From Buxus sempervirens (taxonomy: Eukaryota > Streptophyta > Magnoliopsida > Buxales > Buxaceae): a stretch of DNA of 64,000 nucleotides. Shown here one piece after another: positions 1,763 to 37,864 of this stretch (the stretch's first letter is position 1; each line of letters opens with the position of its first letter). Location of the stretch: the NCBI GenBank assembly GCA_947561395.2, contig OX387187.1, positions 32,655,829-32,719,828 of the forward strand, given 5' to 3'. The notes under the pieces are model-generated. The model was given only the letters and a program-made list of their open reading frames with translations. It made no database searches and was not told the DNA's origin. The translations under genes were made by a program, and so were the position numbers.

Positions 1763-3990
1763 TTGGAAAGGCATGAAAAGGGTCCCCAGGCCAACATTGA
1801 GGAAACAGAGTCAATTGACATAGGTGAAGTAGCACAACCCAGGATTCTCCAAATTGGTAAAAAGCTGTCACCATTATTGAGAAAACAGATGTTTGATTTT
1901 CTTAAATCTTATTCTGATGTGTTTGCATGGTCATATGAGGATATGCCCGGGTTAGACATGGACTTGGTAGTGCATCGGTTACCAACAAAGTCTGAGGCCG
2001 TACCTGTGAAACGGAATCTCAGGCGCACGAAGCCGGAATGGGCCCTGAAGATCAAGGAAGAGGTCACCAAGCAACTGGATGCCGGGTTCTTGCAAGTAAC
2101 TCACTATCTGGAGTGGTTAGCCAACATTGTGCCAGTTCCCAAGAAAGATGGGAAAGTCAGGATGTGTGTCGACTATAGAGATCTGAACAAAGCAAGTCCG
2201 AAGGACGACTTCCCATTGCCGCACATTGATGTACTGGTGGACAATACAGCAACGCATTCGATGTTCTCTTTCATGGACGGTTTCTCTGGTTACAACCAGA
2301 TAAGGATGGCACCTGAAGATATGGAGAAGACATCCTTTATCACGCACTGGGGCACTTACTGCTACCACGTGATGCCATTTGGACTAAAGAATGCGGGCGC
2401 TACATATCAGCGTGCAATGACTCTGTTATTCCACGACATGATACACAAGGAAATGGAAGTGTATGTGGATGACATGATAGCGAAGTCTAAGGAAGAAGAA
2501 GATCACTTGGTGAACCTTGGAAAGATGTTTGACAGACTCAGAGAGCACAAGCTTCGGCTCAACCCAAACAAGTGTGTGTTTGGAGTGACTTCAGGAAAGC
2601 TGCTCGGCTTCATAGTGGGCAAGCGAGGCATTGAGGTTGATCCTGTCAAAGCAAAGGCAATTCTGGAGATGCCTCCTCCGTCGACAGAAAAGGAAGTGAG
2701 AGGATTCCTGGGCAGATTGCAGTATATCAGTAGGTTCATTGCGCAGATGACTCCTGTGTGTGAGCCTATATTCAAGCTGCTAAAGAAAGACAACCCTGTG
2801 GTTTGGAATGACGACTGTCAAATAGCGTTTGATAAGATCAAGGCCTATCTGATGAGTCCGCCGACTTTGGTCCCGCCTGTCCCAGGACGACCCTTGATTA
2901 TGTATCTGACAGTCTCTGCGACGGCTGTAGGATGTGTGTTAGGACAACACGATGAGAAAGGGCGGAAAGAACAAGCAATCTACTACCTAAGCAAGAAATT
3001 TACCGACATCGAAGTCAGATACACAGTGCTTGAAAAGACGTGTTGTGCCCTAATCTGGGCAGCCCAGAAGCTTCGCCATTATTTGCTTAGCCACACAGTC
3101 TTACTGATCTCCAATCTGGATCCGTTGAAATACATTTTTGAGAAGCCGATCTCCACTGGTAGGGTTGCCAGGTGGCAAGTCCTTTTATCTGAGTATGACA
3201 TTGTCTACACAACCAGAAAGGCGATAAAAGGACAAGCTGTAGCAGATCACTTGGCAGAGCATCCGCTACCGGACTACCAACCACTTCTGACTCAATTCCC
3301 AGACGAAGATGTGATGTGTACAGAGTCTGCAGATATTACAGAAGAAACCAAGTGGCAAATGTTCTTTGACGGGGCAGTGAATGTAAATGGAAAAGGGATC
3401 GGAGCAGTGCTAATTTCCCCAGACAATGTCCATCACCCGATAGCAGCAAAGCTTCTGTTTGATTGCACTAGCAACATGGCCGAATATGAAGCATGTGTGT
3501 TAGGCCTGCGAGCGGCGATCGAGATGCATATACAAGAGCTGAAAGTATTTGGTGATTCGAGTCTTATCATCTATCAAGTGATGGAAGACTGGAAGACCAG
3601 AGATGTGAAGTTAGTGCCATACCAAGAGCTGGTCAAGGAATTAGAAGAGGAATTTGAGAGCGTGACATTTGACTACATGCCACGAGACGGGAACCGATTT
3701 GTAGATGCCCTAGCTACACTGGCATCAATGGCCACCATCACGAATGATGCTTGGGTGCAACCACTGGAAATAGAAATTTGGCGTTACCCTGTTTACCGCT
3801 TCAGTGTTGAGAAAAGCACACCCGAAGAAGAGCCTTGGTACGCAGACATTGAGAGGTACACAAGGAACAGAATTCTGCCAGAAGGTGCCTCAGCTGCAGA
3901 GAAGCGAACTATACAAAGGTTGGCAGGGCAATACTTTTACAGTGGGGGCAGACTGTACAAGAAGTCATACAATGATTCCCTACTGCTATG
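1763..3990 (+). CDS. Tat/Ogre reverse transcriptase, RNase H and archaeal-type second RNase H
   Basis: The reverse transcriptase shows the NIVPVPKKDGKVRMCVDYRDLN block, FMDGFSGYNQIRM, MPFGLKNAGATYQR and the YVDD catalytic box (about 2462). The first RNase H follows, with AIYYLSKKFTDIEVRYT near 2980. A second, archaeal-type RNase H starts near 3359 (FFDGAVNVNGKGIGAVLISP) and ends near 3730 with DALATLASM. The double RNase H is diagnostic for the Tat branch of Ty3. The protein would act in the cytoplasmic virus-like particle to copy the element RNA. Part of a broken element. Confidence 0.9.
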
Positions 3991-4019
3991 TGTCAGAGAA
4001 GCCGAGGCATGGAAATTGA

Positions 4020-5082
4020 TTGAGGAAGTCCATGGAGGGTTGTGCGGCGCACACATGAATGGGCATATGCTAGCAAGAAAGATTCTAAGGATGGGCTATT
4101 ACTGGATGACCATGGAGGCAGACTGCTACGCTCATGCAGAAAATGCCAGCTATGCCAGATTTATGCCGACAACATCCATACACCATCGAATACGTTACAT
4201 CCCATGACATCACCTTGGCCGTTTGCCATCTGGGGAATCGACATGATAGGCCAGGTTCATCCAATGGCTTCAAACGGGCATCGGTTCATCTTAGTGGCAA
4301 TTGACTATTTTACCAAGTGGGTAGAGGCCATGTCCTTCGTGGATGTAAAGAAATCTCATGTGCTCAAGTTTATCAGAAACAATATAGTCTGTCGCTACGG
4401 AGTTCTAGAAGCGGTCATCACTAATAATGCAAAGAATCTGAATAATAAGGACATGGAAAAGATGTGTGAAGATCTGAAGATCAGACATCTAAACTCCACG
4501 GCATACCGGCCCAAGATGAATGGGGCAGTAGAGGCTGCCAACAAGAATCTGAAGAAGATACTTGAGAAAATGGTAGTCACTTACAGAGACTGGCATGAGA
4601 AGCTGCCCTATGCACTGCACGCTTATCGGACGTCGATTCGGACATCGACCGGAGCAACCCCGTTCTCCCTGGTATATGGAATGGAAGCAGTCCTCCTCGT
4701 GGAAGCACAGATTCCGTCACTTAGAATTCTGAAGGAAGCCGAAATCAGTGACGTCGAGTGGGAAGAATCCAGATTTGACCAGTTGCAGTTACTGGATAAA
4801 AAGAGGATCAAGGCTTTGTGCCATGGCCAACTCTATCAACAGAGAGTGGCGCGAGCCTACAACAAGAAAGTGAAGCCACGACAGTTCAAAGTGGGAGACC
4901 TAGTGCTGAAGAGAATCTTTCCCCATCAAGAAGACAACCGTGGGAAATTCAAGCCAAACTACGAGGGGCCATTCGTAGTCCACAAGGTTCTGTCCCGAGG
5001 AGCACTCATCCTACAAGAAATGGACGGGGCAATTTTTCCTGAGCCGATAAATGCAGACGCAGTCAAACTGTACTATGCCTAA
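4020..5082 (+). CDS. Tat/Ogre integrase region
   Basis: The zinc-binding N-terminal part (HGGLCGAHMNGHMLARKI, then two cysteine positions near 4130-4160) precedes an rve-type catalytic core beginning FAIWGIDMIG and containing AIDYFTKWVEA and STAYRPKMNGAVEAANK. The C-terminal part has PRQFKVGDLVLK and ends INADAVKLYYA, as usual for Tat integrases. It overlaps the end of the RT/RNase H region and completes pol. No chromodomain is visible. Part of a broken element. Confidence 0.85.
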
Positions 5083-6230: not shown

Positions 6231-9169
6231 TGTAAGCACCTTATTTTTGCACCCTTGGAATTGCCGGAAATGCAAACCCTAAATAGAAAGTCAAACCATA
6301 AGGGACAAAAAGTTGACCTTCTGACCAAGTGATAATGGGCCACCTTGATTTATCCCATTGGATGGAGAATCCCGACACGAGTCCAACGCAACTGAGTTTG
6401 CTGGAATCGGAGTCCGGATGAAGATTCTAAGGGCAGTCAAACTTAAGGGAAGGCCAAAAGTTGACTTTTCCTCGGAATCCGTGCCAAGTGTTTAGCCATA
6501 TGTCATTGAATATAGGGCTCCGATACGAGTCTAACGCAATTGAGTTTGCTCAAATCGGAGTTCGGATGAAGGAGATATGATCTGTCGAAGTTTCCGGGCA
6601 GCAAAGCCAGAAACTGCACACGTGGCACAAGAACTGCGCACATGGCGACCAACGCAGCAAAATATCTCAGGGACTAAATCTTAAATATAAAAAATTCGTA
6701 CGGGCGATCCGTAGATATCAAAAAGGGTCAAATCGGTCGAATCGGTCAAGTCGAAGGGCAAATCCGTAATTTCTCGATTTGTATCCGGTCTAATATACCG
6801 GATACACTAGCTACCCTTCATGACCGGACTTGAAGACCGGATATACAAGAAGATTTTCGCGCGAGATCCGCGCCGATCGCCCGACAAATTCGCGGCGGCA
6901 TTTAATTTCCAAATGATTGTGTTTGTATCCGGTCTTGAAGACCGGATACAAAGGAGCCTTAGTGTATCCGGTCTTCAAGACCGGATACACATAGGGCATA
7001 GTGTATCTGGCCTGAGTTGCCGGATACATTATTTTTTCTATAAAAAGCAAACCAGCAGCTCATTTCGGGGGTTGGCTTTCTTTTGGCTGTTTCCACCCCT
7101 TCTCCTCCACCCTTCCTGGTACGAAACCAGCCTCCCTCACCCCTCTTTCCTCCTTCTTTTTCTCCATTTCCTCATAACCAAGATAGGAGGCTTGCTGTTG
7201 GCGGATAAAGGAGAGGTGCTCCAGCAACTCTTGGAGCTGTAAAGGGGGTTCAACACTCATCACAAAGGGTTTTAAACCCCAAGGTAATGCTTCCCTACAC
7301 CTTGTATTTCACATACATGAGAATGAGTGTATTTCCCAATGTTTAGAAAGTCTTGCTTATTCCATGCTCAAAATCAGTTTTTCAGTAAAGTTTCCTTGCA
7401 TTTGCTTTGTTAATTCTGTAGGCTGCTGCTTCACATGCTTCTTGTGATTCAATGAGGGAGCATGTTCCCTCTTGCTTGATCTCATGTATCCCATATGCAA
7501 GCCTCCCCCTATTCCCTTCTTTAGGCAATCTTTTTAGCTAAGTGTGTGACTTAGTTTTGCATGATTATGGTATGATTGAGGGTGATGCATTTGTTTTACT
7601 CATTTACACATGATTATAGTGGTATGCGTGCCTGTGATTTCACCTTCATGACTGTGTGTCCCAAGCATGGGTATGAGCAAAGCTTGGTGGGTGTGCATGG
7701 AAAGGGATAAGCATGGCTTTACTGTTTTAAGTACTTGTTTAGGACCCCATGCATGATTGGTTGTTTGCCTGTTATTGTTCATACTTGGCCGTTGTTCCAT
7801 AGGTCTGTAAGCACCCGGAATGGAGGTACATGACCTCTGTTCCTCCACTGAATTTCGTACAAGATGTAGAAGAAGGGAAGCCCATACCCTTCTCCCATGA
7901 TCCGGCTTGGAAAGCCCTTCATGAGAGCCAAGTGGCTCACCTGAACCAACGTGGGCTCACCTAGGAGCCCACACGACCTCCAGAACCCCCTGGAGGGCTT
8001 AAAAACCCAACCCCCTGGCAGAAATCCGAAAATTGGGTTTCTGCAGGTTGATCCGGCAACTCAGGCCGGATCAACAGAGCCCCCTGTGTAGCCGGTCAAG
8101 GATGCCGGATACACAGAGACCAGTGCATATCCGGCGACAGATACCGGATACACAGTGACCTGTAGGTAGCCGGCATCTCAGGCCGGCTACACTGCCAGAA
8201 TCCATTTTGAGCCATTTGCTGATCTTGTATGTTTTTTTTGAATTGTTTAATCAAATCCGAATGAACCAGAAGGGTTTCCGGGTCACCCGGAAACCCAAAG
8301 TGGGCCACGGACCGACCCGGTCCAAATTGATTTCCGGTGGGCCTTCCAACGGGGCCCACCAAGCCCGACCAACCCACTTGTGCTTAAATAAGATAAATAA
8401 GAGATTTGAGTGGGCCAAACCATTTGAGGCCCACCCAAGCCCTATCTGGGCCATGCATGCTTAAAGTAGATCGTGGTGTGGCCGAGACCACGGGCAGGGC
8501 CTATCGGGCCCACTAAGCCCATGAACCCAACCAACTTAGGGTTTAAGAACCCTAACTCAGGAAGTCCTGGGCTTTCAAGCCCAAGCCTAGGTAAAGGGCC
8601 CCAAGCCCAATATCTGGCCCATTTTTGTAAAGGTTAATCAAGAATAACTCAAAACACTTGGCAACCAAGGTGAGGCCCACTCAAGGGCCCACAAACAATC
8701 CCGGCCCACTTGTGCATAGAAATCACTTAAATAACCAAATCGGAATTTAAATAAAATCAATTCACTTCAACCAAAGCCCAAGGGGCCTCTCAGGGTTAGA
8801 CTAAGGCCCACCAAGGGACAGGTGGGCTCAACCAAGCCCACCCAGGAATCCGCGGGCCTTCCAATGGGGCCCACCCAATCAGACTCACATCACTTTAATT
8901 AAAAAGATAAAATCAAGTAAAGGGACCCACACCACTTTGGCGGTTCCGCTAGACTTAATCAAATCACATGCTGGAATAGGAATTGGGTAAGCGAGAGACC
9001 GACTGAATTGACTCAAACCAGGGAATCCTATGGGACCCGTCACTTGACGGGGTGGACTGGGGTGTCTACGGACTTCCCCATACCGCAACCGAGCCCCAAT
9101 CTCAAAGCCGCAGACCAAAAGCCTTAATAGAAGAAATTAGGCACCTAGGTGTCTGCCTGCACCCCATCA
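6231..9169 (+). repeat. Tat/Ogre-type LTR A (about 2.9 kb)
   Basis: It begins TGTAAGCACC and ends near CCCCATCA just before a TGGCGACTCC primer-binding site. It aligns by eye along its length with LTR B (10234-13254), at roughly 85% in the parts compared, so the two are old or belong to sister subfamilies. The U3 part holds four or five GTATCCGG/CCGGATAC palindromes (6781-7027), then a TATA box at 7039. Further palindromes of the same style appear near 8090-8190. The middle (8300-8900) is rich in GGCCCA/GGGCC words. No host gene is contained. Confidence 0.85.
7039..7047 (+). promoter_or_regulatory. LTR A TATA box
   Basis: TATAAAAAG directly follows the last U3 palindrome and matches the TATAAATA at the same place in LTR B; the downstream words GCAAACCAG(C/T)AGCTCATTTC are shared. 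Probable core promoter of the element. Confidence 0.6.
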
Positions 9170-9174
9170 GGCAG

Positions 9175-9192
9175 TGGCGACTCCAAACAAAC
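9175..9192 (+). promoter_or_regulatory. Primer-binding site after LTR A
   Basis: TGGCGACTCC lies five bases after the LTR end, as at 13260. The word is typical of Ogre/Tat primer sites, usually ascribed to tRNA-Arg. Only the first ten bases are convincing. Confidence 0.55.
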
Positions 9193-10216
9193 CCCGAGGC
9201 ACGCATCGTTTTGCGTGCGCCTCGTCGTGCGACCGAAATCGGGTGTGCACAAACGTCTCAAGCCTCGCCCAGTCTGAAGAGGCCGGCCTTGCAAAGGAGA
9301 GCCAGAAAGGGACAAAGAAAGCCAACTTCAATCCTCAGCAGAGTCTCTCGCACTCGACAAGGGCTTGAATAAGCATGAAGAACTCAAGCCCGTGCAAAAG
9401 GAAAACGCCGTATCAAGGAAAATGACAGCGTGAGGAATCCCCACTTATCCCCAGTGGAGCATCCTTCCCAGGGGGACTCCCACGCTCGCCAGTAACAAGG
9501 ATTGAATCAAAAGGAGAGGCGACGAGGAAAAGATTCCTTCCCAAATCCCCAGCAACAGTCATACCAAGCTAGGGAGCCCCTCCAAGAGAACAAGCCAGCG
9601 CTACCAAAGAAGGGACAAGAAGACATGGAGAAGAATGAGCATAAATGAAGATATCACCGGGCAAAGATGGCCCCTTTTGTAATTTTGTTTTCACACTTTT
9701 GTAAATAGATTAGAGCAGGTGTGTGGGCTCCTCTGAGGCACTGGACAGCGCTGGAAGCACCTCCTCACCAACAGCAGTTCCTCCTCCACTCTTCCTTCCT
9801 CTTTTCTCCATTCGGTCGGCATCCTAACCCAACCCTTGGCCGTCAAAAGAAAGATAAGCTTCAAGTAAAAGACATAAAATGGATCAAAAGTCAGAAGTCA
9901 CCTAAAAGCTTTAATGGAACAAATAAGAAGAAAAGAATATTGTCAAGTGTCTGGCATCAACGCCGAAACAGGTTGGCGAGCTCAAGTCCAATCTGATCTC
10001 TTTTAAACTTAAATCAAATGCTGAGGAGTTGCCCTACAAAAACCCGAAAGAAAAGGGTGAGGAAACTCTGAAGCCAGGGAGTGGCGCCACATGATTTGGC
10101 CGCTTCCCTCTCAAAATAAAAATTTCAAAGGATTAAGCTCGTCGACTATGTCGACAGAAATGCCAGGCGCAAAACGAGATTCTTTTTCTCTTTGCCGTTC
10201 ATCCGCGAGGTGACTC

Positions 10217-10233: not shown

Positions 10234-13200
10234 TGTAAGCACCTCATTTTTGCGCTCCCAAAAAGCCAGAGATGCAAAAACCCGGCCGAAAAGTCAAACC
10301 CGGAGGGGTGAAAAGTTGACATTTTAATCAGATAAAATTGGGCCACCTTGATCTATCCCATTGGATAAATAATCCCGACACGGTTCCAGCGCAACTGGGT
10401 TTGTAGGAATCGGAGTCAGGATGAAGGTTCTGCGGGCGGTCAAACTTAAGGAAAAGCCAAGAGTTGACTTTTCCTCGATTTTCGTGCCAAATACCTTACT
10501 TTAGCCCAATGGATAGAGAATCCCGACACGGTTCCAGCGCAACTGGGTTTGCAAGAATCAGAGTCCGGATGAAGGTTCTAAGGGCAGTCAAATTTAAGGG
10601 AAAACCTAAAGTTGACTTTTTCTCGGAATCCGTGCCAAGTGCTTAGCCCCATGTCATTAAATAGAGGGCTCCGATACGAGTTTAACACAATTGAGTTTGC
10701 TCGAATCGGAGTTCGGATGAGGGAGATATGATCTGTCGAAGTTCCCAAGCAGCAAAGCCGGAAACTGCATACGTGGCGCAAGAACTGCACACGTAGCAGC
10801 CAACGCAGCAAAATATCTCAGGGACTAAATCTTAAATATAAAAATTTCGTACGGGCGATCCGTAGATATCAAAAAGGGTCAAATCGGTCGAATCGGTCAA
10901 GTCGAAGGGCAAATCCGTAATTTTTCGATTTGTATCCGGACACATATACCGGATACACTGCCTATCCTTCATGGCCGGACTTGAAGACCGGATACATCAA
11001 GATATTCGCGCGAGATCCGCGTCGATCGCCCGACAAATTTGCGGCGGCATTTAATTTTCGAATGATTATGTCTTGTATCCGGACTTGAAGACCGGATACA
11101 AAGGGAAGCTAGTCTATCCGGACTTCAAGTCCGGATACGAAGAGGCCTTAGTGTGTCCGGCCTGAGTTGCCGGATACATTAAAATTTCTATAAATAGCAA
11201 ACCAGTAGCTCATTTCCGGGGTTGGGCTTTTCTTGGCTGTTCTGAGCTTCCTCCTCCACTTTTCTCCCACACGAATCTCCACCTCTTCAACCCCTTTTGG
11301 CCCCCATACCAGCCCAAGCCCTTCCTCTCTTCTCCTTCTCCTCTCTATCCCTACTGAAAGAAGAAGGATTGGAGTTGCTGTTGGTGCTCCAAGGAGGTCT
11401 CCAGGTGCTGTACCACCCCCAAGGCATACCACCATCTTGCACAAGAGGTCAAGGACCTCAGGTAAGACTCCTCTCCATGTTAGATTCGACATATATTAAA
11501 ACTGTATTTTTCTGCAAATATTCTTGTGTGGTTTCTCTTTTTTCGCATGAGGACACGTTCCTACCATGCTAAGTATGTATTTTTCATCATTTGCATGGCA
11601 TGAGGGTTACTACACGTAAGAAACCCACGTGGGTTCCTCTAGGAAGGCATGGTGGTCCATCTATCACCCGCTCTTTAGTCCCTTTGTGTTGCTGTTTTTT
11701 TTTGTTTTTGTTTTGCTCCAAGCATGTTTAAAAAGGGAGCATGTTCCCTCTCCTCTTGCCATCTAATGTATCCCCATATGTAACCCCCTCGCTATTCCTT
11801 TCTTCGTCTCTTCAAGTGAAATGCATGTGTATAGCTAGTGGGGTTTTGCTGTGAATAACATGCTGCATGTGTTAGCATAGGTTTCCTCTTGTCTTTGCAT
11901 GAAGGTAGTTTGCCTTGGACCCAAGCATGTGGGGACCAACCCTCCCTGGAAGCAGATTTTCCCTTCATCATTAAGACCATGTGTGTCCTATTTTCATTAC
12001 TATCTTGTGTAAGCATGATCCCCTTTCCCCTTGTTTTACATTCCCTTGCTCTTGCTAAAAGACCCAAGGAGAGAAGCCAAGTGTGGCTTCTCCCAAGACT
12101 GAACCTACGTGGGCCTCACAGGGGCCCACAAGGCCTTCAAAACCCTCCTGGGAGCCCCTGGAATCAATCCCAAAAGGCCAAAACCCCAAAAAGGCCAATT
12201 CCAGAGTGATCCGGATACTCAGGCCGGATCACCTTTGGCCTCTGTGTATCCGGATACACTGGCCGGATGCACACAAAAGCCTGATTTTTTGCATATTGTT
12301 GATCCCCGGCCGAATTTTTGGCTAATTTGTACTAAAACCAATGAACCAACAGGGTTTCCGGGCCACCCGGAAACCCAAGATGGGACTTGGACCAACCGGT
12401 CCGACCCGGCACACTTGTGGGCCTTCCAACGGGGCCTACCAAGCCCAATGAACCAAAGCCTGCTAATTGAACAAATTAAGTGAAATGAACGAATTGAACC
12501 GGGCGGGCCAAGCCCAATGCGGCCCACCCGTGCCTCGTGATGTGAATGAATGCATGAACTGTGTGGTTTGGCCGAGACCATGGGCTAGGGCCTGTCGGGC
12601 CCGCTAAAGCCCACCAACCGAACCGAGTTAGGGTGCAAGCCCTAAACCCCGAGGAACTGGGCTTTCAAAGCCCAAGGCCTGGATCATGGGCCCAAAGCCC
12701 AATGACCAAGCCCACTTTGGTAAAAATTGAATAAAGATAAATTAGACTTGCTTGGTCACCATGTGGGCCCACCAACCGATCCGGCCCACCACTTTCATGA
12801 AAAACACCTAAGCTTTAACTTAAACCTTAATAAAAATAAACTCACTAACCAAAGCCCACAGGGCCTCCTAGGCTTAGACAGAGGCCCACATGGGCACATG
12901 GGCTTACCCAAGCCCACCAAGGGCACCACGGGCCTTCCAACGGGGCCCGCTCAATCAGACTCAAATAATTTAAATAAAACCAAGATAAAATCAACTAAAG
13001 GGACTCACACCACTCAGGTGGTCCTGCCAAGACTCAATCTGAATTACATGCGGGATTAGGAATCGGGTGAGAACCAAAGTGAAAAGCTGACTCAAGATAG
13101 GGAACCCATGGGACCCGTCATCCGACGGGGTGGGTTGGGGTGTCTACGGACTTCCCCAGCCCGCAACCGAGAACCGACTTAGAATCTCAAGCCGCAGACC

Positions 13201-13254
13201 CAAAGCCCTAAATAGACAAGATTAGGCACCCAGGTGTCCGCCTGCACCCCATCA
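10234..13254 (+). repeat. Tat/Ogre-type LTR B (about 3.0 kb)
   Basis: It starts TGTAAGCACC immediately after a polypurine tract and ends CCCCATCA five bases before a TGGCGACTCC primer site at 13260. U3 palindromes at 10932-11177 have arms like those of LTR A but with paired substitutions in the centre. A TATA box is at 11189. Two nearly repeated U3 blocks (CCCGACACGGTTCCAGCGCAA at about 10374 and 10522) show an internal duplication that LTR A also carries in altered form. No host gene is contained. Confidence 0.85.
11189..11196 (+). promoter_or_regulatory. LTR B TATA box
   Basis: TATAAATA lies 12 bases after the last U3 palindrome, at the position equivalent to 7039 in LTR A. Confidence 0.65.
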
Positions 13255-13259
13255 GGCGG

Positions 13260-13277
13260 TGGCGACTCCGAATTCCC
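13260..13277 (+). promoter_or_regulatory. Primer-binding site after LTR B
   Basis: TGGCGACTCC follows the LTR end by five bases, as after LTR A, and marks the 5' side of the internal region that holds the hairpin array and gag. Confidence 0.6.
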
Positions 13278-13308
13278 CCCGTGCCGCGCTTATGCCGCGC
13301 GCACAGGC

Positions 13309-14275
13309 CGTCTAAAAGCCTCTGAATTTTAGACAATCATTTCTTTGGGCCATCTAAAAGCCTCTGAATTTTAGACAAATCATTTCTTTGGGCCGTCTAT
13401 AAGCCTCTGAATTATAGACACATATCCTTTGGGCCGTCTAAAAGCCTCTGAATTTTAGACAATCATATCCTTTGGGCCGTCTAAAAGCCTCTGAATTTTA
13501 GACAAATCATTTCTTTGGGCCGTCTAAAAGCCTCTGAATTTTAGACAATCTTTTTTTGGGCCGTCTATAAGCCTCTGAATTATAGACACATATCCTTTGG
13601 GCCGTCTAAAAGCCTCTGAATTTTAGACAAATCATATTCTTTGGGCCGTCTAAAAGCCTCTGAATTTTAGACAAATCATTTCTTTGGGCCATCTAAAAGC
13701 CTCTGAATTTTAGACAATCATTTCTTTGGGCCATCTAAAAGCCTCTGAATTTTAGACAAATCATTTCTTTGGGCCGTCTAAAAGCCTCTGAATTTTAGAC
13801 ACAACCTTTTTGGGTCGTCTATAAGCCTCTGAATTATAGACACATATTCTTTGGGCCGTCTATAAGCCTCTGAATTATAGACACATATCCTTTGGGCTGT
13901 CTAAAAGCCTCTGAATTTTAGACAAATCATTTCTTTGGGCCGTCTAAAAGCCTTTGAATTTTAGACAATCATTTCTTTGGGCCGTCTAAAAGCCTCTGAA
14001 TTTTAAACACAACCTTTTTGGGCCGTCTATAAGCCTCTGAATTATAGACACATATTCTTTGGGCCGTCTATAAGCCTCTGAATTATAGACACATATCCTT
14101 TGGGCCTCTGAAAGCCTTTGAATTTCAGACTTTTTCCAAAAATATCCCTGGTCCTCTGAAAGCCTTTAAATTTCAGACTTTTTCCAAAAATTTCTTTGGG
14201 CCTCTGAAAGCCTTTGAATTTCAGATCCTTTTCTTTTTTTGGGGACCTATTGGAAGCCCTAGAATATTCCAACAA
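13309..14275 (+). repeat. Tandem array of 23 hairpin units (about 42-bp period) in a Tat leader
   Basis: Each unit is an 8-base arm, a 9-base loop (GCCTCTGAA, later GCCTTTGAA) and a complementary arm, followed by a spacer ending TTTGGGCC. By my count 13 units have arms GTCTAAAA/TTTTAGAC, 6 have GTCTATAA/TTATAGAC, 3 have TCTGAAA/TTTCAGA, and the last is TTGGAA/TTCCAA. The arms change in step, so pairing is kept. The array lies 50 bases after the primer-binding site and 190 bases before the gag ATG, in what would be the transcribed leader. Tandem repeats in Tat/Ogre untranslated regions are known; I do not recall paired-arm change being described. Confidence 0.95.
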
Positions 14276-14462
14276 TTCAATTCAAAAAAAAAAAAGAAGC
14301 AAATAAAGAAACAAAATCCAAACTTGTGTTCACCCAGCTTGCACATAGGCATTCCTAGGCATGTGAATGAGATTAAATTGGCACTGATATTTTCTCTTTA
14401 TTTATCCAGGTACCAATACACTTGCAACCATAGCTCTTGTAACCATATCAAGAGCTCGCGCC

Positions 14463-16160
14463 ATGAATCCGATTGAGACTGAAGTTGATGCTCCACACCC
14501 AGATATTGTCTTACTTCAGGAACAGGTGGCAGGACTAGCCCGAATGCTAGAGAACATACTATCGGTACAGGCCCAACAAGTTCAAGCCCAGAACCAAGCA
14601 TCCATTTCCAACCCAGCACCTCCACCCCAAATCAATATTCCACCTCCAATTCAACCTATTCCTGAACCCATTTATGAACCCACCCCTGAACCTATACTGA
14701 TCAGGGATGAGATGGTTGAATCGGACAAAGAAAAGGAAAAAGAAAGGATAAGGGAAGAAATGGAAAAGAAATTCATGCACAGACCGGAGATGATTCAAGA
14801 TGAACTAAGGGAGGTAAAAGGGGTGAATAACTTTGGAGGCACCAATTTCGAAGATTTGTGTCTATACCCCAATGTATGTCTACCAGCCAAGTTTAAATGC
14901 CCAGATTTCGATAAATATGATGGCACTGGCTGCCCAATGAGCCATTTGAAGTTATACTGCGGGGCTTTATGCCAGTTTGGCCGGGATGACGGCATACTAA
15001 TTCAACTCTTCCAAAGGAGTTTAACTGGAGCTGCTTTTAGATGGTTTGCCACTTTGGATCATGGGAAAATAAGAAGGTGAAAGGATTTAGCAGATTCCTT
15101 TTTGGCACAATACAGGTTCAACTCTGAGATTATACCAGATAGGTATGACATGATGAGGATGGCGAAGAGAAATGATGAGACCATAAGGCAATATGCGAAA
15201 AGGTGGAGGGAGTTGGCTGCACAAGTCAAGCCACCCATGGGAGAACCAGAAATGATTTCAACCTTCATCAGCACACTGGGGCAACCCTTTTATAGTCACT
15301 TGGTGGGTCAAACTACCACCAACTTTGCTACCCTAGTGCAAGTGGCAGACAGAATTGAAGATGGGATCAAGTCTGGGAAAATAGCTGATTACTCTGCAGT
15401 GTTGAACCAGGAAGCTTCCACCACTTTCTCTACACAGAAAAAGGAGAATGGTAATGAAAGAATAAAGAATGAAGAAAGGAGATAAGCAAAAGTGAATATG
15501 GTACAACTTCCCAGGGAACCCTTCCAAATCAATGCCCATCCACCTCCTATCAAGCCAACCCATCAAGTTCCTTTTCTGCCTATCCAAATTAATGTCCCTT
15601 CTGCACAGCCTGTAAAGGGGGAAACAGAAGTAAGGATGAGAAGGGAATTTTCTAAACTACCTATGAGACCATCTGAACTTTTGCCTACCTTACTTCAAAA
15701 GGGTTATGTGACTTTGAGGTTGCCAAATCCTCATGCAAACAAGGGGAAGAATTATGATCCATCTGCAATCTGTGATTATCATATGAACACTCCAGGGCAT
15801 ACCACTGATCGTTGCTTGGCCCTAAAGCATGCAATTCAGGATTTACTGGATAATAACTCCTTATCATTCAATTCAATTACACCCATCCCACCTACCGATA
15901 ACAATGGGGCAGGTAGCTCAAATGCAATAGGGGCAATTTTCTTTGGAGAAAGAAGATTTGACCCTTCTCAGCTTATCGCTCCTATTGGTTCAACAGTCAA
16001 GGTTTATCTTGAAAGGAATGCTCCTGGTTATGAGCAGGAAGGCTTGCCTCACTCAGCAGGAGAAAGAAATTATCAGAAAAAGGGAGAAAAGTCAACTTTT
16101 GCCTGTGAGAATAGAGGCAGTTTTCGAACTCCCATGTTCTCTGAAAAGAAACCTACATAA
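14463..16160 (+). CDS. Tat/Ogre gag region (broken)
   Basis: It begins MNPIETEVDAPHPDIVLLQE, then a coiled-coil and Pro/Ile-rich segment, then the Tat gag core: KFKCPDFDKYDGTGCPMSHL, the SLTGAAFRWFATLD box, MAKRNDETIRQYAKRWRELA and ISTLGQPFYSHLVG. The distal part (LPMRPSELLPTLLQKGYVTL, then a CDYHMNTPGHTTDRC zinc-knuckle-like box and AIQDLLDN) is typical of Tat gag ends. The protein would form the particle core. The region is a fossil with about two or three breaks; no pol follows it. Confidence 0.85.
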
Positions 16161-19100: not shown

Positions 19101-19389
19101 GGAGATTAATGTTTATATTAGTTGCAAGGATTGCCACCTTACCCACTTTTGTTTAAAAATTTTGTCTCAAATCTCACTTCATAGCCACGAGTGCTCAGTG
19201 AGAGGAGAGAGGAGGATTTGGCCCTTAAGCTGAGGGACTTTTAGCAAATCTTCCACAATAAATCCTTTTTCATCCATTTAATCCTTGCAAAATGCAATTA
19301 GTTAGACAAAGATCTCAAAAAGTGCAATTGGTGGGTCTTTTTACTCTCTGCTGGTAATTGGTTCCAATCACCGGCAAAGAGGGGGCAGC
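16161..19389 (+). other. Non-coding remainder of the gag-bearing Tat element, with its 3' region
   Basis: There is no pol here. From about 17310 the text parallels the first element's 3' region (ACACCAAGCCTTCGTTTTGTCC, then GTGAAAACCCGG), so this is Tat 3' non-coding sequence. A hairpin with arms GTAGTG/CACTAC and inner CCC/GGG lies at 17483-17508. A word TCATAGCCACGAG occurs at about 18859 and 19182. A 90-base A/AAG-rich simple run lies at 18180-18265. The part 16200-17300 is AT-rich and I recognise nothing certain in it. Confidence 0.55.
19373..19389 (+). promoter_or_regulatory. Polypurine tract before LTR C
   Basis: CCGGCAAAGAGGGGGCAGC directly precedes TGTAGACACC, fixing the LTR start. 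Confidence 0.8.
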
Positions 19390-21224
19390 TGTAGACACCC
19401 CAAATTGCACTACAAAATGAGAAAATAATGAAAATATTAATTGGGATTTGAAACAGGTCAAAAAAGTGTAAATCTGGCCAAACTGGTCATGACCGTATTT
19501 TGTTTACGGACTGGTCATACTTGCAGTTGATATACGGTCACGACGTGCCCGTATTAATAATATGGGCAGGGCGCGACCGTAATATATATACGGGCACGGG
19601 GTCTTTGTGCGAATTTATCCTTTTTGATTTTTGAGCCTTATCTGCACCCAAATATCTCTCTTGGATAAGCGAATTCTCTTATTTATCTGTTCGAATTATC
19701 TCATTTATCCTTGTGGATAAAGGATTGGCATGATCTTGTGTTTAACTCAAACTGAAACTCTATCTTGCCAAACCTTGGACCAACCATGCCCCTGGGTTTG
19801 CTTATAAATAGAGGGCCTTTGCTCAAGCAAAAGGCCACGAAATTTTGAAGTCTAAAAAGCTCCAAGAGAAGAAGAGAAACCCCTGCTGCTTTGCTTGCTC
19901 AATCCAGATAAGTCCCTTTTCCCTTTTATTTTCTGTCTTCAATTCTAGATGTAATAGGATCATCTCTATTGCTGTAGAATAAGGCCATCTTTTGTATCTA
20001 GTATTTCTAAACTTGCCTCCAAGTACCTCAAGAGTCTCTCTAGCCGTAAAACGTGAAGAGAGAGCTAAGGGAAAAGAGAACAGGTGGATCCCTAGAATAG
20101 AACCCCATATCTGTTTTTCTCTTTTTTCTAGAATAAAGCCTCTGATTGTGTTTGTATAACCAAACCTATCTCCAAGTACCGCAAGAATCCTCTCTAGCCG
20201 TAAAACGTGAAGAGAGAGCTAGGGGAAAAGAGAACAGGTGGATCTGTAGGGTAGACCCCCACGTGTTCTAATCTGTGAGATATGGCTACTTTAAATATCT
20301 TGATCATGTTTTAATGCTTTTTATGATGAATCTGAATGAATAACATGAATCCATGATGTTTATAGCATGAGATCCCCACTTTTTGCTAAAATTTGGATTT
20401 TTGCTACATATTTGCACCTACAGCACTGTTTTCGTGATTTTTGTGATTTTAGGCTAAGATCCTGGATTTATCATGATCAATATGGTAGATCTGGATCCAA
20501 GAGCCTGAAAATAAATTCTAGGGTTTCATGATATGGTTTTTGATTTGTTTTCCACTTTTGAGAGAAGACCCTACGGTCTAAGTTCTCCCCTTTTGACGTT
20601 CTTCATCAACGTGGGTATTTTTGGTTTTTATTTTTTGATTTAATGTGAAATTTGGGCTTTATCTATGTCCTGGACTATTCAAGTTCAATTTTGAAATATT
20701 TTATAAAAATCATATTTTTCTAGATTTCTAGAATTTAGCTTGAAGCCAGATCTTTGGATTTTTCACTTTAAATTGATTTTATTTGATTTTATCTCAATTT
20801 TGTTTTGATCATGAAACCCTAGGAATGGTATGATCATATTTGAAAGTTCTGGATCAATCAGACTATTCGTATGAAAAAACCATACAATTCTCTCTTTTTT
20901 TGTGATTTTTCCTGATTTTTATAGCAAGCTTTTTTTTTTTTCCTTTTATTAAAACATGAACAATACCTGGCAACCACCTTGTGTGGATGAATAAGGGTGC
21001 CTAACACCTTCCCCTGTTCATAACCTAATCCCCTTACCCATCTCTGGTTGTTTTTTTAGGAGGGTTATTTTTACCCTAAAATTGCCTTTTGTGCTTATTT
21101 AATATTTTGGTGTCCATTCACACCTAAATTGAATGGTGGCGACTCTTTGTTTTATTTAATCCTGTGTGATGATTGAGGAAGTCAAAAGGAAATTTTGATT
21201 TTTTCCCATGTCTCACAAAAGGCA
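19390..21224 (+). repeat. Tat/Ogre-type LTR C (about 1.8 kb)
   Basis: It starts TGTAGACACCCCAAATTGCAC, the same family as LTR D (35490) and LTR E (61939), not the family of LTRs A and B. U3 palindromes at 19485-19597 include perfect 10-base arms GTGCCCGTAT/ATACGGGCAC. The TATA box is at 19803. Two copies of a block with CTCTCTAGCCGTAAAACGTG and AAGAGAGAGCT follow at about 20040 and 20195. The end is uncertain: a TGGCGACTCT primer-like word is at 21137, but similarity to LTR D runs on to about 21224 (CCCATGTCTCACAA then GGCA). Confidence 0.75.
19803..19810 (+). promoter_or_regulatory. LTR C TATA box
   Basis: TATAAATA, followed by GAGGGCCTTTGCTCAAGCAA, matches the equivalent sites in LTRs D and E. 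Confidence 0.7.
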
Positions 21225-22921: not shown

Positions 22922-24440
22922 GGATACAGTTAAGTGGAGGATGACACTAAACCAATTAACAGTTATTCATCCAAGGCTTCCTTCAAACCAAAATCAGCTC
23001 CAACTGTTCTGCTCTAACACATAAAGCACTAAAATGCTCAACAATAATGATGACTGCATAAGGAGAAAAATGATCTTCTCACCTTTATCCCCTTGAAGAT
23101 AGAACCCAATCAATAGAAGCACCATTAACCAGGCCAAGAAGAAAGAAAGAACAAGCAAAGAGGAGGGAAAAAGAATAAGAAGAATATGATCAAGGGAAGC
23201 ACCATCAACCCCCTTTTGGTCCAACTTTAACAACCAGAAATTTGTTTTACAAGGAAATTCTAGACCTACCAGTCATTTCTTCCATTCTTATAACACCAAG
23301 TAAAATGAGATATAATCACTGAAAAGATAAGCATTCCACACGCTCAAAATATACTTGAACAAGAAGCTCATCTATGGCTCAAGAGATTTAAAGAAGCTAA
23401 GGAAAGACCTGTGGTATAAGTTAGTGCCTTTCTGATGTTATGCATTATGCATCCGGGGTCAGGACTCCCATCACCCAAGCAAGCATTCACTCGAGAATAA
23501 GACAAGTTGGAAGAATCAATGAATCCTTCTCGCGATGAAGAAATGGCTCTAGCCTGGCTATAAATATAAAGAGGCTTCACTCTATCGTTTAAACATGAGA
23601 TTCCAGCAATTCCCCATGCTCAAGAATATTGCTCAGAAGAATCAGAACAATAACATTTAGCCACCATATACACAATGAAATCAAACTCATAGATTAGTAG
23701 AGGTTATCCGATGCACCAAAGCCACAAGCATTTGCAATGGGCAGTGCTCAAGCATTTGAAAATACAATTTCATAGTAATAAAAAATTTTAGTTTCTTTTA
23801 GGCATCTTATCAAACATGTCATCAACAAATATGCAATAACCATGAGTTGAAATTTAAAATATCATCAACGAACCTAATCGAATCTAGTAGAAGCCATAAT
23901 CAAGCCAACCCCAATTAAATAGCTCGTCAAGCCAAAGCAAAACTCCAACCACAACGATCAAAATGTATCATCGAGTGACCCTACAACGAAAAACACATTG
24001 GTGAGAAATAGAGGAAGCAAACGATGGTCATGATTCTCCTCCTCTTGTATTTGTGTTGGAATTTGGAACCCCCAGAATGAAATAGATGATGGATGGAGTG
24101 AAAGTTTCTGATGATGAAGATCTGTGATGGAATGGTTCGTCCAAGTACGAACAGCAGACGCACGAACACGAACATGAACAACCGTCGGATACCATGAGCA
24201 AGGAAGAATGGCATGCACCCACGCAACAATCAAAGAGCAGGAGGAGACACCCCTTCTCTTTGGATTCGCCGGCTTGAGTAACGAAGAGTTTTGATTTTCG
24301 CTGCATTTGCGATTTGGCGCAAACGGGAAACATGTATTTTTGGGGAAGATGGGCGTAACGGAGAGTCTCTGTTTATTTGGCCCATGACCGTTAACGGAGA
24401 GTCTCCGTTTAAGTTATTACGCTAGAGTGGGACGCGTGGC
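22922..24440. other. Flank of the quinone-reductase relic, nothing certain
   Basis: This would be the upstream region of the minus-strand quinone-reductase gene. I see no recognisable coding sequence. Near 24348-24400 the word AACGGAGAGTCTC(T/C)GTTT occurs twice, each nearly self-complementary. Confidence 0.35.
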
Positions 24441-24491
24441 GGAAATCGGCCGAAGCTCCAGCCGATCTTCCAGCGTCCCGCTCCAGCTGAT

Positions 24492-24898
24492 ATGGGGTCT
24501 CGCGCTCTGACACACCACCTCTCCTCCTCAACCTCTGCTAATGCACATAAACTTTCTTCGACTGAGCTGTGGTTCTTCCACCAGTCTCTGCTCAAATTTT
24601 ATGAGGTCCGTCCATGGTTTACCTTCCCCAACAACATTGCAAATGCCTCGGTCATCCAAATTCTTAATAGCGAAGCCGACGGCGGCTCCGGCAATCTTCA
24701 CATCCTAGATATTGGGGTATCTCATGGTTTACAGTGGCCGACCCTGATTGAAGGCTTGGCTTGCCGATCCAGTGGCCCTCCTTCACGGGTTAGGCTTACT
24801 ATTGTTGCAACCAGTACCACCACCATTGACGACAATCAAAACACAGCACCTGCCTTCTCAGTTGGTCCTCGTGGTGATGACTTCTCCTCCCGACTCCT
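24492..24898 (+). pseudogene. SCL29-like: GRAS regulator (NSP1/SCL29 type), 5' fragment before the chromovirus insertion
   Basis: The fragment encodes MGSRALTHHLSSSTSANAHK, then LLKFYEVRPWFTFPNNIANASVIQI, the VHIID-type box LHILDIGVSHGLQWPTLIEGL, and VGPRGDDFSSRLL. These match the NSP1/SCL29 clade of plant GRAS transcriptional regulators, known for roles in symbiotic signalling and strigolactone synthesis. The leucine-rich first GRAS subdomain is absent: an in-frame TAG lies upstream at 24423 and the preceding text is unrelated, so the gene is also 5'-truncated. It stops where the element starts. Removing the element and one CTCCT leaves the reading frame open into 34242-34842 (FSSRLLLYAKKRNLNLQIN), about 335 codons in all. 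Confidence 0.9.
24894..24898. repeat. Target-site duplication, left copy (CTCCT)
   Basis: CTCCT here and at 34237-34241 flank the TG...CA ends of the chromovirus; five bases is the usual Ty3 duplication length. Confidence 0.95.
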
Positions 24899-27290
24899 TG
24901 TCACGCCCTAAATCCCCCCTTCACGACTTACATAGCGTGAGTGGGACCGAGCCTGACCTTGCTCGTAAGCGGATACCAAGGCGCAATTATCAAACAATAA
25001 AAGTCTCTATTTCATATTAAAAGTCTCCAGAGTTCAGCGGAAATAAATAACATCTCAACATCCTAGAGCCAATTTAAACCAATAACAAAGTAAACCATCC
25101 GGTCCAAACATATCCAAATTACATGTTCCAAAAAAAACACACAAGTCCTATGATTAATAAAAGTCTAGGTCACGAGAATCCCACAACACTATCATTTCCT
25201 TCCGTTCCTTTTCTCTTGATCATTTCCTGCAAAGATGTAAGGGTGAGTTTCAACGAAACCCAGTAAGTGAGGTTAATATACCTCACATGAAGTTATGCAC
25301 AATATCTTGCTATATTAATACAACATCAATTACGTATAGTAATTAGTAGTTAATCTACATTTTTCCTAGGTTTCATTCATATGGGTAGTGTACCATATAA
25401 GTATAGTATAATTAATAAGGGAACATGCATCTCTATTGAATAAAACAACATTGCCATTAAATAAGCTACAACTAAAAATATAAAGCAATGCCACAATAAT
25501 AATGTTAAACAGTTTAATAAGAAAATGTGAAATTAAAATGTTGAATCCAATTAATTCAAACCACATAACCGAAACCACACTCCCAGGAGTATAAAATCCT
25601 CCTGGGTACTCATACTAGTGCTATGCACTAGGAGTACTCAACCAATCAACCTCCCAGTAGGCGTCCCGTACTGGGTACTCAACTAGGTGTGTCCCTAGGA
25701 GTACAAAATCCCGGAGATAATCCCACCAGGTACTTAACTAATGCTTGGCCAAACATTAGAAGTACTCACATCCGAACTCCTGGTGGTTTCTCACACCGGG
25801 TACTCGACTAGTGAATTCCTATCACTAGGAGTACTCAATATCATCCCAGTGGATTTCTCACACTGGGTACTCAACTAGCATGCAAACTAGGAGTACCATC
25901 ATCATTATCATCTCCCAGCGAATGTTACACGCTGGGTACTCAACTAGTATGTATAACTAGGAGTACAATCACATAGCTCGAAATCCTAAGAATTTATAAT
26001 AAGGCAATAGATATAGCCATGCTCACAAAAGAGTCTACACATTTTGTTCAGCATATTCACAACATTTAAAAAGTGTCATGTATAACTACAATGCCCCTTT
26101 GTGTAGCCATCATCTTGCCATCATCCAACAAAAGGGATGGTGATGACCTAAGTCAATGAATAGTAAAGACCTATGGGCTAGAGTGCTGCTAGAGTGCAAG
26201 GCTTGATTTATGCTAAAGCTTTTTGATTTATGCTAAAGCTTTGTACGATGAGGTCATCCTCCACTCAAGGAGGAGGACTTCATCCGTTCTCTTCTTTTAT
26301 TTCTCACTGTTCATGAGCATCATTCATTTATTGCTCACTATTCATGAGCATCATTCACTTGCTTTTACTATTCTCGGTCCATGAGCTTCTATTGTTTCTA
26401 TTGTTTCATGAGAAAATAATAAACATGAATGGGAAAACAGATACAAGGGCCGATTGTGTACACACGAAAAAGGGTTTCATGGGTTTTCAAACGTACTTAA
26501 ATAAGACAAGTCAACCCATCTAATACATGAGAAAAGAGGATAATGAGAGCACCATTAAAATTCAATAAACATGTACGAATAGACCCATTTCAACATCAAA
26601 CAACTTTGAATAGTTTAGTGAACAGTAGACCAGCCACGTTTATTCAACAGTAGTTGATTGAACAGTAATTTATTCAACACAAAACAACCCAGCCACGTTT
26701 CATTGGTTTTCTTTCTTTCCCCTTTTCATTATTATCATTGTATTTTCTTTTTTTTTTTTTGTTGAATCCAATGAAACCTGACGTATTCAAATCAGAACAC
26801 TTAATTAAAGTGGAGGAGCATAACATCCCACAAAATTTAACATTTTTGAGGTCCTTCTTGACAAGAGCAGATTTATAATAACCTATATAAATCATCCAAT
26901 TAGAAACAAAACATAATGCACAATGTCATGAGAAATCTATTAAACCCACTTACTTGTTTTAAGAGCACCAAGTTAAAGTTTATCTTCAAGATTCTTTTTC
27001 CCAAGACAATGGAAGCTAGGCTTGATATGAGAGTGAGGGAGAGAATGAGAAAAGGGGAGAAGGTGAGATGAGAAGGAGAAAGGGAAAAAGGGGCGTGGGG
27101 TGAAGGGAGAGTCTTTGAAATAGGTTTTAGCAAATGACGGCTAGGGTTTGCTTTTGGAAGGGATTGTGTGTGTGTGCAACTAGGGGGGGTTGTGTGCTCA
27201 TCCATAATTTCTCAAATAAAAGCAACTTGACCAGTCAAACTTTTGACTGGTCAAAGTTCCAAAGAAATCTTTTTTTTTTAAGTCGTTACA
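24899..27290 (-). repeat. Left LTR (3' LTR) of the chromovirus
   Basis: This 2392-bp LTR has plus-strand ends TGTCACGCCC...GTCGTTACA. It contains a hairpin array at 25582-25966 and a probable TATA box read on the minus strand (TATATAA, plus positions 26884-26890). Confidence 0.95.
25582..25966 (-). repeat. Six-unit double-hairpin array inside the chromovirus LTR
   Basis: Each unit of about 65 bp has a first hairpin with arms CCCAG+2 bases and a second with outer arms GTACTC/GAGTAC around CTAG-type inner arms. First-hairpin arms seen are CCCAGGAG/CTCCTGGG, CCCAGTA/TACTGGG, CCCAGTG/CACTGGG and CCCAGCG/CGCTGGG, so the inner bases change in pairs. Inner arms of the second hairpin vary likewise (CTAGTGC/GCACTAG, CTAGG/CCTAG, CTAATG/CATTAG, CTAGT/ACTAG). 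One unit is degenerate. Confidence 0.9.
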
Positions 27291-31842: not shown

Positions 31843-31845
31843 CTT

Positions 31846-34236: not shown

Positions 34237-34241
34237 CTCCT
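34237..34241. repeat. Target-site duplication, right copy (CTCCT)
   Basis: CTCCT directly follows the LTR terminal CA and matches 24894-24898. Confidence 0.95.
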
Positions 34242-35489: not shown

Positions 35490-37864
35490 TGTAGACACCC
35501 CAAATTGCACTAGGAAAATGATGAATTCATTTTATCTTTTGTAACCAACACAAAAATTTGGATATAAATATGTTCACTTGTATCCGACCTGAGTCATCGG
35601 ATACAAATGCAATTACTTGTATCCGACCTGAGTTGTCGGATACAAGTATTTTTGCTCAAAACTAAGGAATTCCGAGAGTTTTCACTTTTTTACTGTTTTA
35701 CACATCTCTATGAGTGGGACTTCCCGGAAATAGCCTTAGGGTTTAAGTTGGTGGATTCTAGACATCATTTTGTATCTAGCATTGGGGCACCTCTTACCCT
35801 AGCCTTTGCCTATAAATAAGAGGCCTCTCCTCAAGCAAATGGGCAAGAGTTGGAGATTGAAGAACTCCAAGTGAAGAAGGGAATCTCTGCCCCATTGCTT
35901 CCAGAACCCAGGTAAGCCCTAACCCCCTTTTAATTTTCTGTTTTTAAATTCTAGGGTTAGTTCTCTTCTTCTACCTTTCTATAGAATAATGGCCTACTGT
36001 TTATGCTTGAAACCCATCTCCCTACTCAAAGTACCTCGAAACTCTCTCTCGCCGTAAAACGTGAAGAGAGATCTAGGGGAAACGAGAATGGGAGTTGACC
36101 CTTAGTCATAGAACCCTCTTGAATGGCCTATGATTGTGTGAAACCCAATTCCCTACTCAAAGTACCCCAAGATTATTTCTAGCCGAAAAAGGCGAAGAGA
36201 GAACTAAGGGAAACGAGAATGGGAATGGAACCCTAGACATAGAACCCCATTTGATTAATGTACTTTTAATGCTATATGTTGTGATGTATTGATTTAAAGA
36301 GATGATTTTTACATATGCACACATCGCACTCGTTTTGTCGAAATCGGCTTGTATTTTGGATCTGTCGTATTCATTGTGATAGATCTGAAATAAATGGCCC
36401 CAAGCATTTCTGGGACATTTCTTAATAATTTTCAAAATGATACAAGCAAGTTTATCTTTGAGTATTGAAGACCTCATGGTCTAATTTTTCTGTTTTGGAC
36501 ATTTTTGCTCCGTTTTAGGGGTTTTGGTATATTCTCTCCAATCGAAGAGAATGGTGAGCCAAATTCGTGCCCTATTTCCTCCTGGAGGTTTTTCAATACT
36601 TTTTCAAATGATTTTGGTTTGTATTGCACGGATTACACACACTTGATCACTGTTTTGTGTTGATTTTACTTAAAAATGTCAAAACTGAACAGCATCCATA
36701 CCCTAACTTCGGACACCCATAACTTCATCATCCGGATGAATTTTGGAGTGAATCTAAAGACATGTGAAAGGTGAGATTGTCTAGTTCTTGTCCATAAGAT
36801 TTCATCAATTTTTATGAAATGGATTTTTGACACCATTCAATCAAAGTCGACAGGTCAGTTCAGGACAGATTGCTGAACCTGTCACTTTGAATGAGCACCA
36901 TCTGCTCGATTTAAGTCCGATTTGAGTGATTTTGGTTTCTGTGTTTTCCTTTGTGAGTCTACTTTCAAATCCAGTTGATTTCAAATTTTTTTTGCTTTTA
37001 TTTGTGTCGTGGGTAACTAATTTACTCAAAACTGCTCAACAGCACAATTCTGGGCTAATTTGTGATCTTCGTGGCCTGTTCGGGAGGTCACCTAAGGCAC
37101 ATCTGGAGGACGTTTTGTATGGGGCTAGTTTTATTTGAAATATGATACTACATACTTCATTCATGCAAATTTTCAAGGATTTATATGGAGCCAATCTCCC
37201 CAAATGGATTTCCAAAGTTGCCTACTTGTTACTTTTATTGATTTACAACAGCAGATTTCAAATAAGCATAACTCTTAGGGTTTTAACCGGATTTACTTGA
37301 AAATTTTTCTGAGTCTTTTATTTATCATAATCTTTCAAATGGATTTGGTTTGATTCAATTTGAATTTGATTTAAATGATTTATGGTCAAATGGCTCCATC
37401 TTTTACCGAGTTTTTCCGAATTTGCCTCAACTTGCTTATATTTGATTTGAAATTATTGGTGATGTCCTAGAAGTGATAATTCTATAAAAGAGGATCTGGA
37501 ATTCATTGGACTTCTCATGTGGAGGGATCATACATGTTTTTTAATCCTTTTCAAGCCTTTTTTATTATTTTAATTAGCAAGCTTTCTTTATTTTGAACAT
37601 GAACAATACTTGGCAACCACCTTGTGTGGATGAATGGGGGTGCCTAACACCTTCCCCCGTTCATAATCTAATCCCCTTACCCATCTCTGGATTTTTTATT
37701 TTAAGGTGGAATTAATTTTACTCTAGATTTGCCTTTTTGCTTATTTTGATGATTTTGGTGTCCATTCACACCTAAAAAGAATGGTGACGACTCTCCCATT
37801 TTTTCGAATCTCGTGTGATAACCGGAAAGTCACTGGATTGATTTTTCCCATGTCTCACAAGGCA
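35490..37864 (+). repeat. Tat-type LTR D, apparently isolated
   Basis: It starts TGTAGACACCCCAAATTGCAC like LTR C. Two U3 hairpins lie at 35578-35606 (arms TTGTATCCGA/TCGGATACAA) and 35616-35646 (arms CTTGTATCCGAC/GTCGGATACAAG). The TATA box is at 35811. One clear and one degenerate copy of the AGCCGTAAAACGTG block follow at about 36051 and 36181. The right end is uncertain; similarity with LTR C ends near 37864. No adjacent gag or pol is present, so it is either a solo LTR or a 5' end only. A clean target duplication was not found (GGGCG occurs at 35485 and again at 37900). Confidence 0.75.
35811..35818 (+). promoter_or_regulatory. LTR D TATA box
   Basis: TATAAATA, followed by AGAGGCCTCTCCTCAAGCAAA, aligns with LTRs C and E. 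Confidence 0.7.

Follow-up and report, generated by a model that had tools for sequence, protein, structure and literature searches.

Tandem hairpins with paired arm types in the leader of a high-copy Ty3/gypsy family of Buxus sempervirens

Introduction

A row of short tandem hairpins in the genome of Buxus sempervirens raises the question of why the two arms of a unit carry matching differences. Either the fold is used, or both arms are rewritten by copying, or a few paired changes have spread with the units themselves. The locus lies in a window of 64,000 nt (assembly GCA_947561395.2, contig OX387187.1, 32,655,829-32,719,828, forward strand), which is the whole stretch of DNA analysed here. 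The reading tentatively preferred sees here a hairpin repeat amplified in tandem, placed in the long untranslated leader that separates the primer-binding site from gag in a high-copy Ty3/gypsy (Tat/Ogre-like) family. On this reading, pairing would be favoured while the elements are active because the hairpins act in genomic RNA. Units, types, leader position, copy number and the unpaired decay of inserted copies are established below. An RNA role of the fold is plausible but unproven, and is nearly matched in odds by an origin of the array as a by-product of amplification.

The hairpin units in the window

Scripted parsing combined with reading yields 23 tandem hairpins at 13310-14272, with four arm types, in agreement with the earlier note, which had listed three interspersed arm versions and a final TTGGAA/TTCCAA. 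Units 1-19 (13310..14090, + strand) belong to type A (arms GTCTAAAA/TTTTAGAC, 13 of the 23 units) or type B (GTCTATAA/TTATAGAC, six units) and follow each other at a period of 41-44. Units 20-22 (14106..14226, + strand) are the three of type C (TCTGAAA/TTTCAGA), without the eighth pair and so with 7-bp stems; their spacing reaches 48. The last hairpin (14250..14272, + strand) is the single unit of type F (TTGGAA/TTCCAA), with six pairs and a loop of 11 nt. All other loops of these 23 hairpins have 9 nt. The description by the note of perfect or near-perfect stems of 7-8 bp with 9-base loops, in units of about 42 bp, fits most of the row, the exceptions being the F loop, the wider C block and four of the 19 A/B units, in which a pair is broken (an unpaired A.C at the outermost pair in units 2, 10 and 11, and C.A at pair 6 in unit 17). 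A fuzzy 23-mer search found 22 matches in the array and none in 100 shuffles, which excludes a chance origin of the array.

The spacer motif ACATATYC follows all six B units of the window and none of the 13 A units, which looks like one event there. The association is looser outside the window. In another copy of the family, L061, the spacer ACATATCC follows three of 12 A units, and the six B units are followed by ACATATCC (one), ATATATCC (three) or ACGTATCC (two). The spacers of window units 4 and 8, judged by eye, begin A-like and end B-like, indicating that exchange took place in the spacers. The absence of ATG from the array (0 against 11 expected from dinucleotides) was dropped as evidence of a role in translation, the copies being non-independent.

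Nested insertion and host element

The left edge of the array at 13309 is an insertion break and not the start of the array. Immediately ahead of it lies LTR-B (10234..13305, + strand), the LTR of an element of a family here called fam-1. Its end, GCGCGCACA, is found in 10 of 15 printed fam-1 copies and with one change in four more, and is absent in L044. The sequence behind this end differs between copies; L033 and L036 run on into the primer site TGGCGACTCTGCTGGGG, which occurs at the LTR end in two of 30 fam-1 copies. A common end with differing sequence behind it places the end of LTR-B at 13305 and makes the array its flank. On this basis a left junction, TTTGGGCCG|TGTAAGCACC, was predicted and then located 10.9 kb outside the window on its left side, at G000:C9:32644940-32644958. 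A 5-bp target-site duplication, GGCCG, was likewise predicted and then found, with its right copy at 13306..13310 and its left copy at G000:C9:32644944-32644948, immediately ahead of the LTR start (also in L087). A fam-1 element of ∼24 kb, flanked by this duplication, sits within the hairpin array. Left of it are 11 further C-type or decayed C-type units (L087, G000:C9:32644360-32644948), four of them with one arm base altered, so that the undivided array reads 11 C, 19 A/B, 3 C and F. The layout of C block, A/B block, C block and F is broadly common to L062, L063 and the reunited window array.

The sequence TGGCGACTCC at 13261 was rejected as a primer site, as the position falls inside LTR-B; a short upstream frame running up to the first hairpin was dropped on the same ground. 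At G000:C19:36451677-36451695 another fam-1 LTR starts right after TTTGGGCCG, possibly a second insertion into a hairpin array. LTR-A (6231..9251, + strand) is the LTR of a second fam-1 copy, with a probable 3′ limit and nesting order.

The hairpin array itself is part of an element of a second family, fam-2, and not of the abutting fam-1 LTR. The order of parts is plain in L061, where the end of a fam-2 LTR is followed by the primer site TGGCGACTCTGCTGG at 1503, a leader of ∼2 kb, hairpins at ∼3520-4707 and a gag frame from 4996 (Retrotrans_gag, 2e-10). L061 thereby combines an LTR, a primer site and a retrotransposon-type gag of the kind expected in the Tat lineage of Ty3/gypsy. Ahead of its main array, at 3520-3760, stand four type F-like hairpins with a period near 75-79. 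In the window, fam-2 gag reading frames (14388..16160, + strand; interrupted) contain a Retrotrans_gag domain at 15081-15485 and resemble the L061 sequence, in which the gag frame is open. A polypurine tract and LTR-C, a fam-2 LTR by family similarity, follow at 19374..21217 (+ strand; limits set by eye), with half-sites of the TACGG type near 19500-19600 in U3.

The attribution to a Tat/Ogre leader made in the earlier note was right in kind, and needs correction in that the leader is that of fam-2. The Tat lineage is marked by a second (archaeal-type) RNase H domain in pol, and RT_RNaseH together with RVT_3 is present in the window in the pol of fam-1, whereas the array belongs to fam-2. Ogre elements are marked by an extra open reading frame ahead of gag. 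Between primer site and array of L061, the one element searched, the longest ATG frames encode 113 aa (+) and 124 aa (-), and fam-2 is therefore not filed as Ogre. An Rfam search of 13200-14500 returned one sub-threshold match, to U4atac on the opposite strand, which scored 20.8 bits where the cut-off is 53. None of 249 candidates in a gag protein search reached E 0.001, and a search of viral contigs gave 0 matches. A DNA search with the 113-nt repeat, by a method that passes over very common words, yielded 0 candidates.

Elsewhere in the window, a young Ty3/gypsy chromodomain element interrupts a GRAS-domain gene, of which each part (24426-24911 and 34228-34842) matches Pfam GRAS; the LTRs of the element (24898-27293 and 31845-34239) are 99.9% identical. 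Duplicated stretches with receptor-kinase-like genes occupy 44736-53608 (kinase domain at 50239-51339; main pair 91% alike).

Copy number and arm types across the genome

Exact matches to the pattern TCTNNAAGCCTNTGAATTNNAGA number 29,085 across the 676.5 Mb assembly, against none for a reversed control. Type B accounts for 2,287 matched units against 119 hybrids with type A (89 B/A and 30 A/B). The observation that no unit mixes arm types holds for the window (0 of 22 A/B/C units) and fails genome-wide. B/A hybrids are the commoner, in 68 places against 28 for A/B (p 5e-5), and in 13 of the 68 they are present two to five times, so that a mismatched unit can multiply.

Arm types were counted in 380 units from 19 arrays, of which 13 came from mismatch listings, five from the first pattern-match rows and one is the window, so that mismatch rates are inflated; units with more than two mismatches in seven pairs were left out. 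All seven core pairs are intact in 283 of the 380 units, distributed over four haplotypes: C (177), A (70, including four A-T units with the loop GCCTTTGAA but an outer G or A), B (30) and D (6). Type D (TTTGAAA/TTTCAAA) is absent from the window set and brings the types to five (A, B, C, D and F); one of its six units is a decayed C, leaving D proper with five units in two arrays. Types A-D pair at all seven core positions and F at six. Folding energies are similar (-5.5, -6.1, -5.8, -5.1 and -4.3 kcal/mol for A, B, C, D and F), and the loop stays at 9 nt while unit-to-unit distances (those <70 being counted) vary from 33 to 66.

Do the arms change in pairs?

Between them, the five types show no fewer than four paired differences, which fall on three stem positions. 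At pair 3, A-T becomes T-A in type B and G-C in type F, which also has two extra loop bases; pair 4 alternates between G-C and A-T, and pair 6 between C-G and T-A. Core-stem differences between types are thus nearly all paired, and independent substitution explains them poorly (Monte Carlo for types A, B and C alone, 0.0015-0.006). Among the window units two of eight pairs are altered on both sides, against none in all six slid controls; two covarying pairs are reached in 92 of 500 shuffles and the covariation score in six of 500. The paired changes are few (about four), old and spread by amplification, as the earlier note had itself cautioned.

For two of the four, a neutral route is at hand. 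Starting from type C, a change of both CTG/CAG sites at a single pair would give type A or type D; these sites are common to both arms and are the most mutated, so that part of the covariation can be explained without function. This bears on an alternative that is almost as likely as the preferred reading and gives the fold no function. In it, tandem duplication and template switching at reverse transcription would have left the array behind as a by-product; paired changes, whether from rare hairpin copying in that process or from deamination striking the same site in each arm independently, would have risen in number by chance. Non-coding tandem repeats are a familiar feature of Tat/Ogre elements, and replication errors have been proposed as their origin in the part of the literature consulted (PMC7004042). 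Mismatched units, moreover, amplify as well. At pair 4, units changed in one arm only (22 and 23) are more numerous than type D, a count that speaks against the preferred reading. Against a by-product stand the pair-3 changes of B and F, which are not double deaminations and so lack that neutral route, and the full pairing of C, A and B (177, 70 and 30 of 380 units), the most frequent arm types, in a sample enriched for mismatches.

Decay after insertion

Once units are inserted, pairing is not maintained. Genome-wide, 883 A.C and 763 G.U mismatches occur at pair 4, that is 1,646 of 29,085 pattern matches; frequent mismatched arms, which the earlier note had named as the finding that would speak against its proposal, are to this extent present. 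As the arms are the same sequence on opposite strands, mutation alone predicts equal numbers of the two mismatches, and constraint on an RNA fold predicts more G.U; G.U is the rarer (binomial p 0.003), and there is no wobble excess. In ten arrays, 59 one-sided changes from the nearest type comprise 26 G.U, 25 A.C or C.A and eight others, a count that is blind to doubles at pairs 4 and 6 and leaves out units more than three changes from any type.

The most-hit sites of the 380-unit count are pair 4 (A.C 22, G.U 23) and pair 6 (C.A 12, U.G 9). C-like units of the 19 arrays (outer base C or T, any loop) show G-C 177, G.U 23, A.C 22, A-T 1 and other 1 at pair 4, and C-G 177, C.A 11, U.G 9, U-A 1 and other 4 at pair 6. 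Under independence 2.9 compensated doubles are expected at pair 4 and 0.6 at pair 6; one is observed at each, and the two found in all (∼3.4 expected) are no commoner than chance, just as a by-product of amplification would have it. The mutated positions are the cytosines of CTG/CAG, which in plants are methylatable (CHG context).

Neither ongoing selection nor ongoing hairpin copying is visible in the inserted copies. The claim of the earlier note, that the fold is used or both arms are rewritten by copying, retains the paired differences between types and finds no sign of either process after insertion; candidates for independent compensatory changes beyond shared ancestry are the ∼four type-level changes, later doubles being no more frequent than chance.

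Collectively, the RNA-fold reading is favoured by the paired types, their similar energies, the small number of B hybrids, the constant loop with variable distances, the covariation in the window and the recurring layout. It is weakened by G.U falling below A.C, doubles at chance level, the 92 of 500 shuffles, the excess of pair-4 singles over D and the amplified hybrids. If it is correct, units with pairing arms would be favoured in active elements through hairpins acting in genomic RNA, most likely in packaging, dimerisation or Gag binding; paired changes would on rare occasions create a new arm type, which duplication of units would then spread, and inserted units would decay freely, mostly by C to T at CTG/CAG sites.

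Palindromic half-sites in U3 and leader

The same elements carry a second kind of inverted sequence. Palindromes of the TATCCGG type recur with a 39-bp period in U3 of LTR-A (6920..7032) and LTR-B (11070..11182), and TATCCGA-N9-TCGGATA with the same period in LTR-D (35575..35648). The window holds 16 (eight, six and two, respectively), mostly 39 bases apart and partly picked for pairing, in which six of ten pairs are changed on both sides; none of 500 shuffles reaches that number or the covariation score, and a +3 slid control reaches five pairs at a lower score (0.103 against 0.279). U3 of LTR-E (62205-62296) has a third motif, AACCGA palindromes with a 39-bp period; no primer site was found behind LTR-E in L077.

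In fam-2, half-site arrays occur in U3 and again in the leader, upstream of the hairpin array, and the motif is the same in both places in 14 of 14 elements. Two have TATCCGG (L071/L061; L086/L075) and twelve TACGGGC/TC (L072/62, L073/63, L074/64, L076/68 and L078-L085), with low leader counts in L079 (one site), L081 and L083 (two each). For L079, L080, L081, L083 and L085, in which no exact primer site was found, the 1,500 bases immediately upstream of the array were taken as leader. Directly before the L071 LTR, stretch 780-1048 has another LTR start and five TACGG sites and is taken for a fragment of another copy. The agreement comprises two motif classes only and may reflect a single historical swap. 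No TATCCGG was found in the first ∼1.4 kb of the fam-1 leaders L033 and L036. Close to the array, seven perfect palindromes TGATTGGT-N9-ACCAATCA, ∼75-82 bases apart, make up a further hairpin family (L075 3914-4385, on the reverse strand of G000:C1:7977000-7981499).

Spacing is rigid. TATCCGR half-sites face each other at a gap of 9 (16 cases) and stand back-to-back at a gap of 16 (nine cases), other spacings occurring mostly where a site is missing; the R agrees in 16 of 16 pairs. TACGGNC sites follow each other in alternating orientation at steps of 14 bases (gap 7 in 48 cases, 21 in 26, 35 in 10, and 6 or 20 in four), and their variable base agrees in eight of the 22 pairs that face each other and in 16 of the 28 that stand back-to-back. 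Since this free base is often unmatched, pairing is not kept there, and candidate protein sites are the likelier reading of the TACGGNC half-sites.

The inverted arms of the hairpin array could by analogy be DNA dyad sites for a dimeric protein, the same preferred half-site being kept in both arms and mimicking covariation. The half-site arrays of the same elements, with their agreement between U3 and leader, and the lack of wobble preference suit this explanation. It is nevertheless improbable, as half-sites match within a hairpin and vary freely between neighbours (order AABAAABAAAAABB..), unit spacing is loose, and U3 is without these half-sites, 14 U3 stretches of 300-400 bases containing only two isolated copies of those of the TCTRAAA array.

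It is tempting, if somewhat doubtful, to propose that each fam-2 lineage has its own palindromic half-site at rigid spacing (TATCCGG with gaps that alternate between 9 and 16 bases, or TACGGGC/TC in alternating orientation every 14), swapped together in U3 and leader. This would mark an element-specific binding factor co-evolving with its sites, or a 5′-3′ RNA contact, beside a separate RNA-hairpin array in the leader kept paired while the element is active.

Significance and relation to known systems

Because a single genome supplies ∼29,000 units, counting can separate selection on stems from hairpin copying and from neutral decay. In the portions consulted of PMC11963269, PMC7004042, PMC6317226, PMC5735166 and PMC4974528, neither a hairpin array in the leader nor an agreement of motifs between U3 and leader is described, a weak absence given mostly open-access coverage; in the main text of PMC11963269 the words ‘hairpin’, ‘leader’ and ‘inverted’ have 0 occurrences.

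Tat/Ogre and Retand elements have tandem repeats downstream of pol (PMC7004042, PMC11963269), and for those of Retand the origin and possible function are called unknown in the text available (PMC11963269). As far as these sources describe them, the likeness to fam-2 lies in family-specific non-coding tandem arrays of variable length and sequence; the fam-2 array differs in its place in the 5′ leader ahead of gag and in a unit that is an inverted repeat with paired type differences.

VANDAL elements are DNA transposons and not LTR elements. An anti-silencing target of the VANC type goes with a binding protein that the element itself encodes. Their VANC target motifs, in the part of the source seen, are tandem and in a single orientation (PMC5735166), whereas the fam-2 half-sites are inverted pairs in facing or alternating orientation.

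The U3/leader motif agreement gives a practical starting point in the search for a trans-acting factor or a long-range RNA contact. In Ty1 (CYC5/CYC3) and Ty3 (bipartite primer site), as reported in the text consulted, stretches close to the two ends of a single LTR-element RNA match in sequence (PMC4974528). The likeness concerns the fam-2 U3/leader half-sites and not the TCTRAAA array; compared with Ty1 and Ty3 as there described, fam-2 has many palindromic copies at rigid spacing, known from sequence and in fam-2 only.
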